NCBI GenBank assembly: GCA_002050275.1 | Contig: MWTB01000021.1 | Span: 62,001 to 126,000, forward strand | Reading direction: 5' to 3' | From: Anaerolineae bacterium UTCFX1 | Lineage (GTDB): Bacteria > Chloroflexota > Anaerolineae > Anaerolineales > Villigracilaceae | Length of the DNA stretch: 64,000 nucleotides | Shown here: positions 3,682 to 7,551 of the stretch, in pieces | How the letters are laid out: every line of letters begins with the position of its first letter | Position numbering within the stretch: position 1 is the first letter of the stretch | Notes under the pieces: model-generated | Database searches by the model: none | Told to the model about the DNA's origin: nothing | The model's input: the letters and a program-made list of their open reading frames with translations, nothing else | Made by a program: the position numbers and the translations under genes

Positions 3682-3707
3682 GATGACTCCAATGTGCGGG
3701 AATTTTA

Positions 3708-3866
3708 TCATGCCTTCAAAATGCTTCTTGATAACACTGCCCCCTGCCTGCACTCGGGCGGGCAGGAGATCCAGATATAGTGCCGTCCCACCGTGATATG
3801 GCCAAGTGAATAGACCACGAGCCCAGTCACCACTACTCCTACACCTATCCACAACATCCGCCTCAT
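3708..3866 (-). CDS. small single-pass membrane protein, copy A
   Basis: A 52-codon ORF with one hydrophobic segment (about residues 5-22), then a short tail containing Tyr-Ile-Trp-Ile-Ser-Cys-Pro-Pro. It starts 52 bases after the lipoprotein gene at 3918. It is clearly related in position and sequence to the small ORF at 5110-5265: both begin Met-Arg, have a Val-rich helix, a Gly-(x)3-Val turn, and Trp-Ile-Ser-Cys before a Pro. The same GGTACGAATAA leader precedes both. No known family is recognised. The repeated pairing with a lipoprotein gene is the main reason to believe it is real. Confidence 0.55.
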   Translation of the reverse strand: MRRMLWIGVGVVVTGLVVYSLGHITVGRHYIWISCPPECRQGAVLSRSILKA

Positions 3867-3917: not shown

Positions 3918-4967
3918 CTACTGACCAGCCCCAAAGAACTCCGTTCCCTCATGTAGCTCGACCATCTCGTCCCGACCCATCTTTATCTTTGGCTGCGCAA
4001 ACTCCATAAAGGCAGTACCTGAGCCGCTTTTCCATAGCGCCGTCTCGGGATTGGCCTCTGCCACCTGCTGGACATGTTGAATCCACCTCATCGCGTAGTT
4101 ATAAGCCGCGGCATTTTCACCAACCGAAAGAGTAGGGTCAGACATCAATATTCCGTAGGTACTCTCGTAATCTCCCTCATTAGGATCAGCCATTGCTTCC
4201 GTTTTGGTAAACATCCTTGCTATTCTCCACACCACCCTCCACACCCCTTCCTGGTCTTCGACTGGCTCTATTGCTTGTTTAATTCTTACATTACCCGTAA
4301 TCACAATCCAGCCACCCTCGTCTTTTACCTCGTGCCAGTCCTCGAGTCTTATCCCTACCTGGTTCGTGTCTATTAAGGCATCGTTCCCTATCCGCTCCCC
4401 GTCCACCTCCCACTCACTCGTCTTCTGCCACGCGCCTCCACTGTTGGATAGGCGGATATTGTCGGGATGCCACACCATTGCCATATCTTTGGCACTCTGG
4501 AGTGGTTGGGCAGCCAGCATCGCCTCATACTGGGCGAGTGTGCGGTACTTGCCCGGCTTATTGGGGTAAACACTCCAGGTATCAAGCCACGCGACCGTAT
4601 GGCTGAGTTTGGAGAAGATACTCTTAAGCTCTGGTACCGCCTCGGGGTTGAGGGTCAGGCACTGCACCGTTGCCCCCTCCGTCCCCTCCCAGAGACAAAG
4701 ATCTTCTGGTGCAACGCTGAGTCCATTCTTCTCCAGTGCGGCCGTCACCTCTGGCGAGAACGGCGGCGCGTTCACCTTAGCCGGTTCGGGCGTTGTAGTG
4801 CTTGTCGGCATTGATGTGGGAGCTTGGGTTGGTGTTGCGGTCATCAAGACTTCGGGAGTCTCGGAGGCTTCGGAAGTCTGAGGGATGACCGTCGCTTGTT
4901 GTGTGGGCGCGGCGCAGGAGGCTAAAAGAATCGTTGTAAGGAATAGGAATATTAATTTGCTTCGCAT
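3918..4967 (-). CDS. lipoprotein of unknown function, copy 1 (short form)
   Basis: A 349-residue predicted lipoprotein. Residues 1-18 are a signal peptide ending in the lipobox Leu-Ala-Ser-Cys (Cys18), followed by a Thr/Pro-rich linker to about residue 70. The rest is one domain of about 280 residues with a Cys pair near its start (Leu-Cys-Leu-Trp and Gln-Cys-Leu). I recognise no family. It is paralogous to the gene at 5308-7266: the signal peptide is identical at DNA level and the first 45 residues of the domain are nearly so, while the remainder is only about half identical. The start is fixed by GGAGAA 8 bases upstream. Base use is richer in C/T runs than in neighbouring genes, hinting at recent acquisition. 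Confidence 0.75.
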   Translation of the reverse strand: MRSKLIFLFLTTILLASCAAPTQQATVIPQTSEASETPEVLMTATPTQAPTSMPTSTTTPEPAKVNAPPFSPEVTAALEKNGLSVAPEDLCLWEGTEGATVQCLTLNPEAVPELKSIFSKLSHTVAWLDTWSVYPNKPGKYRTLAQYEAMLAAQPLQSAKDMAMVWHPDNIRLSNSGGAWQKTSEWEVDGERIGNDALIDTNQVGIRLEDWHEVKDEGGWIVITGNVRIKQAIEPVEDQEGVWRVVWRIARMFTKTEAMADPNEGDYESTYGILMSDPTLSVGENAAAYNYAMRWIQHVQQVAEANPETALWKSGSGTAFMEFAQPKIKMGRDEMVELHEGTEFFGAGQ

Positions 4968-4993
4968 GTTGTTCTCCATCAACAACGATTTTA
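4906..4993. repeat. 88-bp exact direct repeat, copy 1 (signal peptide and start region)
   Basis: This segment covers the ribosome-binding site, start codon, signal peptide and lipobox of the short lipoprotein gene. It is identical base for base to 7205-7292 in the long paralogue. Similarity drops immediately on both sides. Confidence 0.9.
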
Positions 4994-5020
4994 CCCGCCT
5001 CCTGCAAATAGATTAAAGAC

Positions 5021-5060
5021 AAAAGGATTCCGAAGTCTCTAACAACCTCGGAATCCTTTT
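5021..5060. terminator. bidirectional terminator between lipoprotein units
   Basis: Perfect 13-bp arms AAAAGGATTCCGA (5021-5033) and TCGGAATCCTTTT (5048-5060) around a 14-base loop. A T-run ends the hairpin on both strands. It directly follows the remnant reading frame at 5084-5161 and would insulate the short lipoprotein gene from the upstream unit. Confidence 0.75.
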
Positions 5061-5083
5061 ATTCCCTTCATACCGCCAAATTA

Positions 5084-5161
5084 CGCGGCGACTGTCTCAA
5101 ACGCCACGTTCAACCGCGCGGAAGCGGGCAGGCTGAGTTTATCTTCCACCGCCAACTGGGG
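5084..5161 (-). pseudogene. C-terminal remnant of an unidentified gene
   Basis: On the minus strand a 25-codon stretch ending Phe-Glu-Thr-Val-Ala-Ala-stop has the GCG/GCC-rich codon use of the host genes, unlike the lipoprotein genes on either side. It is closed upstream by a stop at 5168 and is followed by the terminator at 5021-5060, as a native gene end would be. I read it as the 3' end of a gene broken by the arrival or duplication of the lipoprotein island. The parent gene is not recognised. The call rests on codon use and position only. Confidence 0.35.
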
Positions 5162-5265
5162 TTACACGAGATCCAAACGAGTCTATTGCTTATCGCTACA
5201 CGCCCCCATGTGTACCAGACGACAATAATAAATATCAAGACAAGCGCTCCCCATATCCATCTCAT
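5110..5265 (-). CDS. small single-pass membrane protein, copy B (truncated or fused)
   Basis: A 51-codon ORF 42 bases after the long lipoprotein gene: Met-Arg-Trp-Ile-Trp, a hydrophobic helix to about residue 19, then Leu-Val-Trp-Ile-Ser-Cys-Asn-Pro. It matches copy A (3708-3866) through the Trp-Ile-Ser-Cys motif. Its last 13 or so codons read out of frame through the gene remnant at 5084-5161, so the native C-terminus appears to be replaced at the junction near 5160. Function unknown. Confidence 0.45.
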   Translation of the reverse strand: MRWIWGALVLIFIIVVWYTWGRVAISNRLVWISCNPSWRWKINSACPLPRG

Positions 5266-5307
5266 ACCTTATTCGTACCACATTTACACCCGCCTCTGCA
5301 ACTCCAC

Positions 5308-7266
5308 TTACTGTGGCTCTGCGTCAAAGAACTCTATCCCCTCTGCCATCTCATCCATGATCTCTTTATTGAGGATAACTTCCCCGCCTGCGGTAAACTC
5401 GAGGGTATCCCAATAGTTATCCACCACCGTAGTCTTGGGGTTCCTCCCAATACCATCTGCAACATCCCCTAGATAGTTCATTAGCTGATTCCACGCCCGA
5501 GCATTATCTGCGATAGGTAAAGATAAATCTGGAATTAAAATCCCATAATCGTTTACACCATCACCATCACCATCATATTTGATATTATCCGAAGCCACCG
5601 CAAGATCCGTAAACCTTAACACAACTCTAAACACCTGTTGTCCGTTGACTAATACCCCTTCCACAGGTACCAATTCCTGCTTAATACACAAACCAGCACC
5701 CAATCCAATATACCCGCCCTCTTGCTGTGCCTCTGTCCAGTCCACTATCTCCATCCCTATCTGGCTCGTATCTATGAGGGCGCCGTTGCCCACTCTCACG
5801 CCGTCTATCTCCCACTCACTCGCGGGCCTCATTACCCCCTCAGTCGGCAGTACCCCCTTGTTGTCAGGATGCCATACCATGCCTACATCCATGGCTAGTT
5901 GCATTGGCTTATTCTTGAGCATCGCCTCGTACGAGGCGAGCGTCGGGTACTTGCCTGGTTTCTTGTCCCTAACGCTCCAGGTACTAAGCCACCCAACTGT
6001 ATTATTAAGTTTTGATAGAGTCTGCTTGAGCTCTGGCACATTCTCGGGGTTGAGCGTCAGGCACTGCACCGTTGCCCCCTCCGTCCCCTCCCAGAGGCAG
6101 AAATCTTCTGGTGCAACGCTGAGCCCATTCTTCTCTAGTGCGGCGGTCACCTCTGGCGAGAACAGAGCCACATCTATCTTAACCTTGTACTTTTCCCACC
6201 CCGCTTGCCCCCACACCCACTGCTGTCCGTCCTCAGTTGTAACTACCTGCACTCCGCTACTGCCATCAATGCTTGAGACTGCAAGCCACGCCTCATCCGC
6301 AATAATCATCTGTTTATCCCCCACCGCCAACATCTGCGTACCCTGGTCTGCGAGCCTCGTCCACTCGTGAGTTGTTTGATCAAAAAGAAATATTCCGCTT
6401 TCGTTATCAATCCATAGCCTCTTATCCCGTGGCGAGTAGTGAATGTCTCTATCTTTTGCCTGATACTCACTCCCACCAGAGGCAAAAAATAAGATGTTCG
6501 TACTTTTATCCACACTTAGCTCATACGCTATACCGTACCCCTCTCCTGCCAAAAGAGCGGTTGGTCCCGAGAGACTACTTGTCCACTTCTCGCCCACTGG
6601 GAGCCACTCTCCTCGGCTACTTGGGTTATCAGTAAATGCCGACATGTAGCCAAGAAATTCACCCGTCTCTTTATCGAGTTGGACCCAGTACAGGGTAGCC
6701 AAATCCTCTGGGTTGTAGCTTACTACCTGCATACACACGGCATCTGTCGGGCAGGCTATCCCTGCGCGCACATACCGCACCACCTTACCATCAGGCGAGG
6801 CATACTCGATTATTGTCCCTCCTGGAGCAAGCGGTCCTTGGGGCGTGAGAACAGGCGCCTCTTCATCACCTATCTGCGCGGGCTGTGGGGCATATACAAT
6901 ACCGTTATCTTTAGCGTAATTTGCAACATTTCCGCCTTGTAAGACAGGTACAAGTCCATGCTGGCGCAAACTCGCGTATTTCTCTCCGTCCCAAGAAGCG
7001 GCTTGCAAGTCTTCAGGTAGACCCATCTCTTCAAAATTTCCAATGATCCATTGCGGGGGTGAATCAATCTCCGTTGACGAGGACAACTCCGCAATCGGAG
7101 CGCCCAGCGTGACGACGATCCGCGTCACCGGCGCGGGCTTTGATGTCGGCGTTGGAGTCAAGACTTCGGAAGTCTCCGAGACTTCCGAAGTCTGCGTCAC
7201 CGTCGGCGCGGCGCAGGAGGCTAAAAGAATCGTTGTAAGGAATAGGAATATTAATTTGCTTCGCAT
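5308..7266 (-). CDS. lipoprotein of unknown function, copy 2 (long form)
   Basis: A 652-residue predicted lipoprotein with the same 18-residue signal peptide and Leu-Ala-Ser-Cys lipobox as the copy at 3918, then a Thr/Pro linker. A middle region of about 290 residues is absent from the short paralogue. It is rich in short beta-type repeats with Trp and Gly (such as Lys-Arg-Leu-Trp-Ile-Asp and Gly-Ile-Phe-Leu-Phe-Asp), suggesting a propeller-like fold; this is an inference. The shared C-terminal domain starts near residue 365 and includes an acidic Asp-Gly-Asp-Gly-Asp-Gly segment that could bind calcium. The start has GGAGAA upstream. Probably cell-surface exposed; no family recognised. Confidence 0.75.
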   Translation of the reverse strand: MRSKLIFLFLTTILLASCAAPTVTQTSEVSETSEVLTPTPTSKPAPVTRIVVTLGAPIAELSSSTEIDSPPQWIIGNFEEMGLPEDLQAASWDGEKYASLRQHGLVPVLQGGNVANYAKDNGIVYAPQPAQIGDEEAPVLTPQGPLAPGGTIIEYASPDGKVVRYVRAGIACPTDAVCMQVVSYNPEDLATLYWVQLDKETGEFLGYMSAFTDNPSSRGEWLPVGEKWTSSLSGPTALLAGEGYGIAYELSVDKSTNILFFASGGSEYQAKDRDIHYSPRDKRLWIDNESGIFLFDQTTHEWTRLADQGTQMLAVGDKQMIIADEAWLAVSSIDGSSGVQVVTTEDGQQWVWGQAGWEKYKVKIDVALFSPEVTAALEKNGLSVAPEDFCLWEGTEGATVQCLTLNPENVPELKQTLSKLNNTVGWLSTWSVRDKKPGKYPTLASYEAMLKNKPMQLAMDVGMVWHPDNKGVLPTEGVMRPASEWEIDGVRVGNGALIDTSQIGMEIVDWTEAQQEGGYIGLGAGLCIKQELVPVEGVLVNGQQVFRVVLRFTDLAVASDNIKYDGDGDGVNDYGILIPDLSLPIADNARAWNQLMNYLGDVADGIGRNPKTTVVDNYWDTLEFTAGGEVILNKEIMDEMAEGIEFFDAEPQ

Positions 7267-7292
7267 GTTGTTCTCCATCAACAACGATTTTA
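7205..7292. repeat. 88-bp exact direct repeat, copy 2
   Basis: Identical to 4906-4993. It spans the ribosome-binding site, start codon and signal peptide of the long lipoprotein gene. Two protein-level paralogues that differ widely elsewhere share this block without a single change. Confidence 0.9.
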
Positions 7293-7318
7293 TCCGTCCT
7301 ACACAGGAATGAAGACCG

Positions 7319-7386
7319 TCCACGAATATGCACGAATAAACGAATTAGCGCGCCGACATTCGAGAATTCGTAGTCTTATTCGTGGA
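7319..7386. repeat. imperfect palindromic element with TCCACGAATA ends
   Basis: TCCACGAATA (7319-7328) and TATTCGTGGA (7377-7386) are perfect 10-bp complementary ends. The interior carries further CACGAATA, ATTCG and GAATTCG motifs. It lies between the divergent lipoprotein and methyltransferase genes and looks like a small palindromic dispersed element. Confidence 0.5.
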
Positions 7387-7402
7387 TGGTTCGCTGTCCA
7401 TT

Positions 7403-7443
7403 CAAAATTCAGCGGTTGAATTTTGGTTTATTTTTGGTATAAT
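7403..7443 (+). promoter_or_regulatory. methyltransferase promoter with overlapping palindrome
   Basis: TTGAAT (7416-7421), a 16-base spacer and a consensus TATAAT (7438-7443). A 9-bp inverted repeat, CAAAATTCA (7403-7411) and TGAATTTTG (7417-7425), overlaps the -35 box and is a candidate operator. The leader to the ATG is about 100 bases. Confidence 0.6.
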
Positions 7444-7463
7444 TTTTCTTGTCAGTTCGTACC

Positions 7464-7523
7464 GCAAGATTTATCTTGCACTTCGCTTGCTTTTACACCG
7501 CGCAAATGCAAAGTGAACTTTGC
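7464..7523 (+). repeat. twin 16-bp palindromes in the methyltransferase leader
   Basis: GCAAGATttATCTTGC (7464-7479) and GCAAAGTgaACTTTGC (7508-7523) are perfect 7-bp arms with 2-base centres, set 44 bases apart in the transcribed leader. They may be tandem protein-binding sites or remnants of a repeat. Confidence 0.5.
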
Positions 7524-7551
7524 GGCGCGAGGACCAACTCAGGAGAACCCA

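Follow-up and report, generated by a model that had tools for sequence, protein, structure and literature searches.

The window, a stretch of 64,000 nucleotides, contains two lipoprotein genes, A and B, that begin with the same head block (Table 1). The array lies on contig C12 of the 34 contigs of its host genome (G000), that of an uncultured Anaerolineales bacterium. As the initial annotation had reported, the two heads share 88 identical bases; the match is exactly that long and breaks off at both edges. Numbered on the coding strand from the ATG of MRSK, the block spans -26 to +62; it covers the leader and a Shine-Dalgarno-like GGAG, followed by the signal peptide up to and including the lipobox cysteine, with 26 of its 88 bases non-coding. 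The signal peptide, read by eye, closes in the cysteine of MRSKLIFLFLTTILLASC, which we take to be a lipobox from the motif as it is generally known; the Pfam model LPAM_1 was listed for a single gene, on contig C26, where it scored below the cut-off. The products of A and B are probably lipid-anchored outside the cell membrane, and the constant head may be a common export and expression module in front of a body that varies. Scanning for sigma-70 promoters returned none at the heads; calling the TAAAAT at the block edge a -10-like element is therefore only a guess.

Table 1. Features of the lipoprotein array and its flanks (window positions)
Feature	Position	Strand	Description
Lipoprotein gene A	3918..4970	-	350 aa: signal peptide, Thr/Pro linker, C-terminal domain without recognised family
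Lipoprotein gene B	5308..7269	-	653 aa: head of A, extra insert of ~310 aa, C-terminal domain of the type in A
Head block of A	4906..4993	-	leader, RBS-like GGAG, signal peptide, lipobox; -26 to +62
Head block of B	7205..7292	-	identical to heads of A and of the second C15 gene
First 129 nt of shared domain, A	4632..4760	-	91.5% identical to B
First 129 nt of shared domain, B	6034..6162	-	counterpart of 4632..4760 in A
Diverged remainder of domain, A	3921..4631	-	43% protein identity to B
Diverged remainder of domain, B	5311..6033	-	from sequence comparison with A
B-specific insert	6163..7130	-	between linker and shared domain; absent from A
Degenerate copy of genus-wide palindrome, linker of A	4847..4879	.	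codes for QTSEASETPEV
Near-perfect palindrome, linker of B	7161..7193	.	codes for QTSEVSETSEV; strong hairpin
Downstream accessory gene 2, remnant joined to piece of gene 3	3747..3866	-	MRRMLWIG...YIWISC, then PPECRQG
Truncated accessory gene 2, after B	5131..5265	-	MRWIWGALVLI...
Locus-native DNA	5012..5135	-	end of a small DUF2283-like gene (16 codons) with the sequence after it; 88% identical to cassette-free G012
Terminator-like hairpin between B and A	5019..5062	-	copied with the block to C15 and C26
Locus-native methyltransferase gene leader	7401..7551	-	85% identity with G012; a further copy went to C26
Locus-native HisRS leader, 3' edge of array	3684..3718	-	from comparison with native flanks

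Body and accessory families are unnamed in the libraries searched: Pfam, NCBIfam, PADLOC and PHROGs gave nothing above curated cut-offs or otherwise credible for A, B, the C26 gene or the accessory proteins. A profile search of the PDB with A returned 0 matches, a plasmid search found no match to A, and AlphaFold2 models of A and B failed (mean pLDDT 34.4 and 34.7, from five sequences each).

Beyond the head, divergence between A and B is uneven. The first 129 nucleotides of the shared C-terminal domain are identical at 118 positions (91.5%; 41 of 43 residues in the protein), as against about 90% over some 130 bases estimated initially, and the remainder is identical at 387 of 705 positions in DNA (54.9%) and 102 of 235 in protein (43%), where about half had been claimed. 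Synonymous distance starts at 0.28 for the first 43 codons and climbs through 1.36 and 1.87 to saturation, versus 0 differences in the 88 bases of the head; the pattern is therefore neither chance nor uniform decay, and the earlier objection to uniform divergence after a duplication stands. The B-specific insert is 86% identical in DNA to two genes of the relative G015, and at the protein level the entire domain of B shares 75% identity with its counterpart in the second C15 gene (C15_2).

The same head precedes six genes at three loci of G000, in front of two bodies without detected similarity to each other, and one of these bodies (YGVIDPN...) is also found behind a different signal peptide. 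The further cassettes that the initial annotation had proposed to look for thus exist; the many unrelated lipoproteins with the same 88 bases that it had named as evidence to the contrary do not, as the block occurs at no further place in the genome. C15_2 is a clear chimera: it is identical to A, on a different contig, at 113 of 113 upstream and 88 of 88 head positions, its next 230 bases, to about codon 77, are like those of its tandem neighbour C15_1, and the remainder is B-like.

Tests for recombination agree with an origin by segmental gene conversion or module shuffling, as first suggested. PHI gave a strong signal in each of the two body families (z of -8.4, with 0 of 2000 permutations reaching the observed value, and -7.5, with 0 of 1000) and none in the single-copy control gene PSP1 (z about 0; gene found in 9 of 10 loci requested, with 7 in a second control run); the seven-sequence alignments omit G15S1A, the frame of which is truncated. 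Maximum chi-square located breakpoints, one of them at about codon 77-80 of C15_2; the signal of one triplet among the six tried was weak (19 of 2000 permutations). Matches of the ends of G15S1A, G15S5 and C26_2 to the neighbouring segment are partly overlaps of the same excised DNA or copy and were left unused. AU test results were mixed: for segment 1, all trees from other segments are rejected (p of 3e-7 or less), segment 2 keeps tree 1 (p of 0.058), and segment 4 rejects no tree.

Exchange extends to distant loci and to intergenic DNA. DNA native to the window locus (the tail of the small gene with the hairpin, and the methyltransferase leader) turns up in G000 at the C15 site, the C26 site or both, and every other fetched version of these two sites lacks it; window-locus DNA has been copied into two other loci. 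Orthologous sites in sister species hold swapped bodies or swapped heads. At site S4, G015 and G002 are 96% identical upstream and have bodies of different type; at site S3, upstream sequences are 92-94% identical and the heads just 58-59%. Despite having the head of A, B departs at 15 of the 88 head positions from the B-type gene that occupies its site in a sister species.

The most probable explanation (probability roughly 0.88) is that A and B belong to one modular lipoprotein gene family, the pieces of which are exchanged between non-allelic copies, most likely by gene conversion, with occasional copying of blocks. The exchangeable pieces would be the head (leader, signal peptide and lipobox), the linker of palindrome and Thr/Pro sequence, the body and the downstream accessory genes. 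Piecewise exchange would most likely be non-crossover ectopic homologous recombination of the RecA type, and occasionally a whole block with its flanks would be copied into another locus. The head may have passed from A to B or the reverse, either gene being a possible donor, so recently that no base differs. Turnover would reflect recombination together with tolerance or diversifying pressure (from phages, predators or neighbours), rather than a programmed switch.

A mobile unit, MITE-like or served by its own dedicated recombinase, with the mosaicism secondary, would account for the fact that relatives have the same sites empty or with other contents, for the dispersed repeat upstream of B that recurs at C18:84925, and for the dispersed linker palindrome. 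It is unlikely, however: no integrase or transposase was recognised by eye among the open reading frames beside the sites, consistent ends were not found, and the moved blocks are of many lengths. Programmed antigenic or phase variation, in which silent copies recombine into an expressed one, would fit the constant head with its variable body. At the G015 site orthologous to that of A and B, the three reading frames are fragments of one A-type and one B-type gene, of which close copies at sites S5 and S4 are intact, although the broken frames could be sequencing errors. Such a programme is quite improbable here, with no single expression locus fed by silent cassettes among the C12 (A and B), C15 (1 and 2) and C26 (1-3) genes, all of which are intact frames with their own starts, and with dN below dS wherever dS is unsaturated and positive selection not seen. 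Plain duplication, with selection preserving the head and the domain start, could draw on the low dN of 0.04 in the first 43 codons of the shared domain, as in a constrained protein segment, but it is very improbable: in six further genes with a head of this type, 8, 9, 9, 10, 15 and 22 of the 88 positions are different, so that the head is free to vary, and neither its 26 non-coding bases, the rise of synonymous distance to saturation within one gene nor the PHI signals are in keeping with it. An assembly or binning artefact, the other refutation initially foreseen, is equally remote, since, fragmented though G000 is and even though two contigs of the relative G017 break off within one and the same accessory gene, with 127 bases identical, the array edges match native flanks in G012 and an independent relative of two contigs (JABTUU01, H5_CFX6) has the same family, mosaic there as well, and the same site in rearranged form.

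The linker palindrome of 31 bases is dispersed in 16 of the 18 genomes that represent the genus, versus 0 occurrences of the backward control in all 18. Among the matches listed, 53 loci with 58 palindromes were classified, exclusive of the lipoprotein copies of G000, G015, G002 and G013. Some lie inside genes (uppP, B12-dependent methionine synthase, HcyMT-MTHFR and a PLP enzyme), sometimes apparently in frame inside core enzymes. A single occupied gene was compared with its unoccupied counterpart: uppP of G000 exceeds that of G015 by 6 aa. Neither uppP nor the PLP enzyme showed a clean 11-residue insertion when aligned with PDB entries. That the palindrome drives exchange is weakly supported, because three members of the shuffled set (C26_1, G15S3 and G15S6) have either none of it or one half, and the breakpoint in C15_2 lies well away from it. 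It is doubtful that a genus-wide selfish coding palindrome of 31 bp at the seam of head and body, with hairpins that would help genes to break and rejoin, serves as a joint for new surface proteins. In the cited passages, inverted repeats are reported near recombination sites in relapsing-fever Borrelia (PMC4534519), PARCEL (palindromic amphipathic repeat coding elements) is coding DNA with dyad symmetry in surface lipoproteins that is thought to be shuffled within genomes (PMC2996958), and Rickettsia palindromic elements are dispersed palindromes of about 150 bp in frame inside conserved genes (PMC10969869). As so described, PARCEL consists of tandem motifs of 25 residues, whereas the linker palindrome is a single unit of 31 bp; the Rickettsia elements are likewise dispersed and near-perfect, but the linker palindrome is shorter and, among the matches listed, more often intergenic. 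With it, a coding palindrome becomes open to testing beyond Rickettsia and Mollicutes, and it may outweigh the lipoprotein mosaic in importance.

Recombination-built lipoproteins of this kind have been best studied in pathogens. The variable lipoproteins of Mollicutes (Vsp/Vpma type) combine a conserved 5' end and signal peptide with variable bodies, and the constant leader and signal peptide of the present family are similar; unlike those systems, no site-specific recombinase was seen here, and tract lengths are many. Borrelia vlsE and Anaplasma msp2 are mosaic surface-protein genes that arise by segmental conversion (PMC4534519), and the likeness to the vlsE type lies in segmental recombination mosaics between paralogues, as evidenced by PHI, shared runs and maximum chi-square. 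In that source, as far as the cited passages go, these genes of animal pathogens have an expression site and silent donors, whereas the environmental Anaerolineales have several intact copies at separate chromosomal loci, and the exchanged bodies can be without detected similarity. Mosaic lipoprotein paralogues are already known; the present arrangement in Chloroflexota is a new form of them. The locus-native DNA provides a tracer of direction, from the window locus to two others, that is rarely available, and the modular building of lipoproteins through recombination between distant loci is evident in uncultured environmental Chloroflexota.

The neighbouring lipoprotein genes of the window, A and B, form an array between divergent HisRS and methyltransferase genes (flank gene names assigned by eye). 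The block shared by both extends from -26 to +62, counted from the ATG that begins MRSK, and contains the leader, GGAG, the signal peptide and the lipobox Cys (together, the head); it is identical at 88/88 bases, and the match stops exactly at its ends. The domain common to A and B is identical at 118 of its first 129 nt and at 387 of the remaining 705, with a synonymous distance of 0.28 over codons 0-43, followed by 1.36, 1.87 and saturation further on. These values bear out the mosaic divergence described in the initial annotation, an 88-bp identity beside approximately 50% identical sequence.

Features of the A/B array, with related copies elsewhere (window coordinates unless a contig or locus is named)
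Feature	Coordinates	Strand	Remark
Gene B	7269-5308	minus	653 aa; precedes gene A on the coding strand
Gene A	4970-3918	minus	350 aa; comes after gene B
Small-gene tail and following DNA	5012-5135		between B and A; 109/124 identical to relative G012
Methyltransferase leader	7401-7551		ahead of B; 129/151 identical to relative G012
Linker palindrome copies	4847-4879 (A), 7161-7193 (B)
Palindrome copies beyond the A and B linkers	G000 C26:2635, C12:246, C12:18867; loci L161-L213

Further cassettes, which the initial annotation had suggested looking for across strains, exist in the same genome (G000; 34 contigs, 92% complete): a genome-wide search placed the head on six genes, two each on C12 (the window's contig), C15 and C26, with no other match better than E 0.0025. 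Both C15 genes have A-type bodies; the C26 genes have a different body (YGVIDPN...) in three tandem copies, the third with a different signal peptide, MRKTISFALALAMILAGC. Similarity between A-type and C26-type bodies was not found in any search made. Thus, one head is joined to two bodies, and one body to two heads.

The head of B has no differences from those of A and C15_2, and of its 88 bases 8 differ in C15_1, 9 in C26_1 and 10 in C26_2, compared with 9, 15 and 22 in genes S1A, S1B and S4 of the relative G015; the yardstick for recency is the dS of flanking genes between G000 and G015 (0.06 to 0.62). Because the region upstream of B resembles that of C15_1 (77/86) and not that of A (38/66), while the head is identical to that of A, a short tract was evidently pasted at the head.

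Recombination was also detected within the bodies. An alignment of seven complete A-type domains (G000 and G015) had a PHI statistic of 0.320, which 0/2000 permutations reached (permuted mean 0.373; again 0/2000 at window sizes 50 and 150), and seven C26-type bodies gave z -7.5 (0/1000); the control, a single-copy PSP1-like gene, gave z -0.0 (489/1000) with nine genomes and -0.1 (442/1000) with seven. Maximum chi-square values of six triplets were reached in 0/2000 permutations in five and 19/2000 in one. C15_2 has a breakpoint at alignment nt 230-239, before which it agrees with C15_1 at 37/45 discriminating sites and after which it agrees with B at 213/249; still further 5', its head (88/88) and the aligned bases upstream of the head (113/113, with 2 gap columns) are identical to those of A. 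AU tests rejected the other three trees for segment 1 (3e-7 or less), trees 3 and 4 for segment 2 (0.001; tree 1 not rejected, 0.058), trees 1 and 2 for segment 3 (0.0019, 0.029), and none for segment 4.

The HisRS-methyltransferase interval of G012 is without a lipoprotein cassette and holds just a small gene (translation end LPASARLNVAFETVTA), which from its sequence we take to be DUF2283-like. In G000 its tail recurs on both C15 and C26, and the methyltransferase leader recurs on C26; neither is present in the other fetched versions of these two sites, S2 (G015, G010, G011, G017) and S3 (G015, G002, G010, G013, G011), which identifies the window locus as a source for C15 and C26. A TTCGTG-rich dispersed intergenic repeat lies upstream of B (7310-7390) and at G000 C18:84925-85002, where no lipoprotein of the A/B family was seen.

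The family occurs in 5 of 101 genomes searched (G000 counted), all of one genus. G012, G017 and G011 lack a cassette at the window's site; in G015 (L071:3923-7438) this site carries pieces of A- and B-type genes, their order reversed and their frames broken, either a decayed archive or sequencing errors, and intact close copies of these broken genes are present at S5 (95%) and S4 (97% across head and insert). S4, adjoining the PSP1-like gene, is occupied in G015 by a gene of B type and in G002 by one of YGEIDPT type, behind upstream DNA identical at 110/114 positions; G000 has neither type there. At S3, adjoining ribF, the upstream DNA of G002 is 105/114 identical to G000 and 107/114 to G015, and its head 52/88 and 51/88, respectively. 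Two G017 contigs (L074, L075) end in the same accessory-gene sequence (first ~127 bases), that is, assembly was interrupted at a further pair of cassettes that share one body type and differ in signal peptide.

Complete G015 cassettes include two downstream genes, for a membrane-type protein (161-162 aa) and a Cys-rich protein, to which no library searched gave a family name. Only fragments of the two are left in the window: B is followed by a gene 2 that is cut short, and A by a gene 2 joined to part of gene 3. The Cys-rich proteins look modular too (L067:9099-10096, L069:8908-9926, L018:9354-10136, L076:4930-5910); that of G002 S4 starts like the C26-type accessory and has a Cys-rich end like that of A-type cassettes.

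The linker contains GACTTCSGAAGTCTCNGAGACTTCSGAAGTC, a 31-bp palindrome, whose half-site GACTTCSGAAGTC, with up to one mismatch, occurs 4 times in the window versus 0.09 expected, always within the two linkers. The whole palindrome (two mismatches allowed) occurs in 16/18 genomes of the genus, and its backward control in none of the 18. The copy of B folds strongly (-24.1 kcal/mol, z -4.4); that of A is degenerate (z -0.9). Among the matches listed, 58 copies were classified: 24 fall within ORFs of 90 aa or more, and 18 are situated well within ORFs of 150 aa or more. Given that 87% of the classified loci is ORF sequence, the palindrome is commoner between genes than expected, and it often adjoins gene ends. 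Genes that carry it in their coding sequence include those for an Eco57I-type methylase and for several core enzymes (uppP, B12-dependent methionine synthase, a fusion of homocysteine methyltransferase with MTHFR, a PLP enzyme), inside which it is sometimes in frame; the uppP of G015 is without it and 6 aa shorter. In G013 (L078:5361-6410), a third, different-looking body follows the same lipobox and palindrome linker.

Among the open-licence PMC papers listed on lipoprotein gene conversion in Chloroflexi, on mosaic lipoproteins, on palindromic repeats and lipoproteins in Anaerolineae and on coding palindromes, none described the family or the 31-bp element, and the listed titles and abstract starts on antigenic variation in Chloroflexi yielded nothing on them either, which is weak evidence of absence. 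The initial annotation's reading, segmental conversion or module shuffling between lipoprotein cassettes, proved right on the evidence of PHI, maximum chi-square, the further cassettes and the tracer DNA: gene conversion together with block copying is well supported as the history of A, B and the related cassettes.
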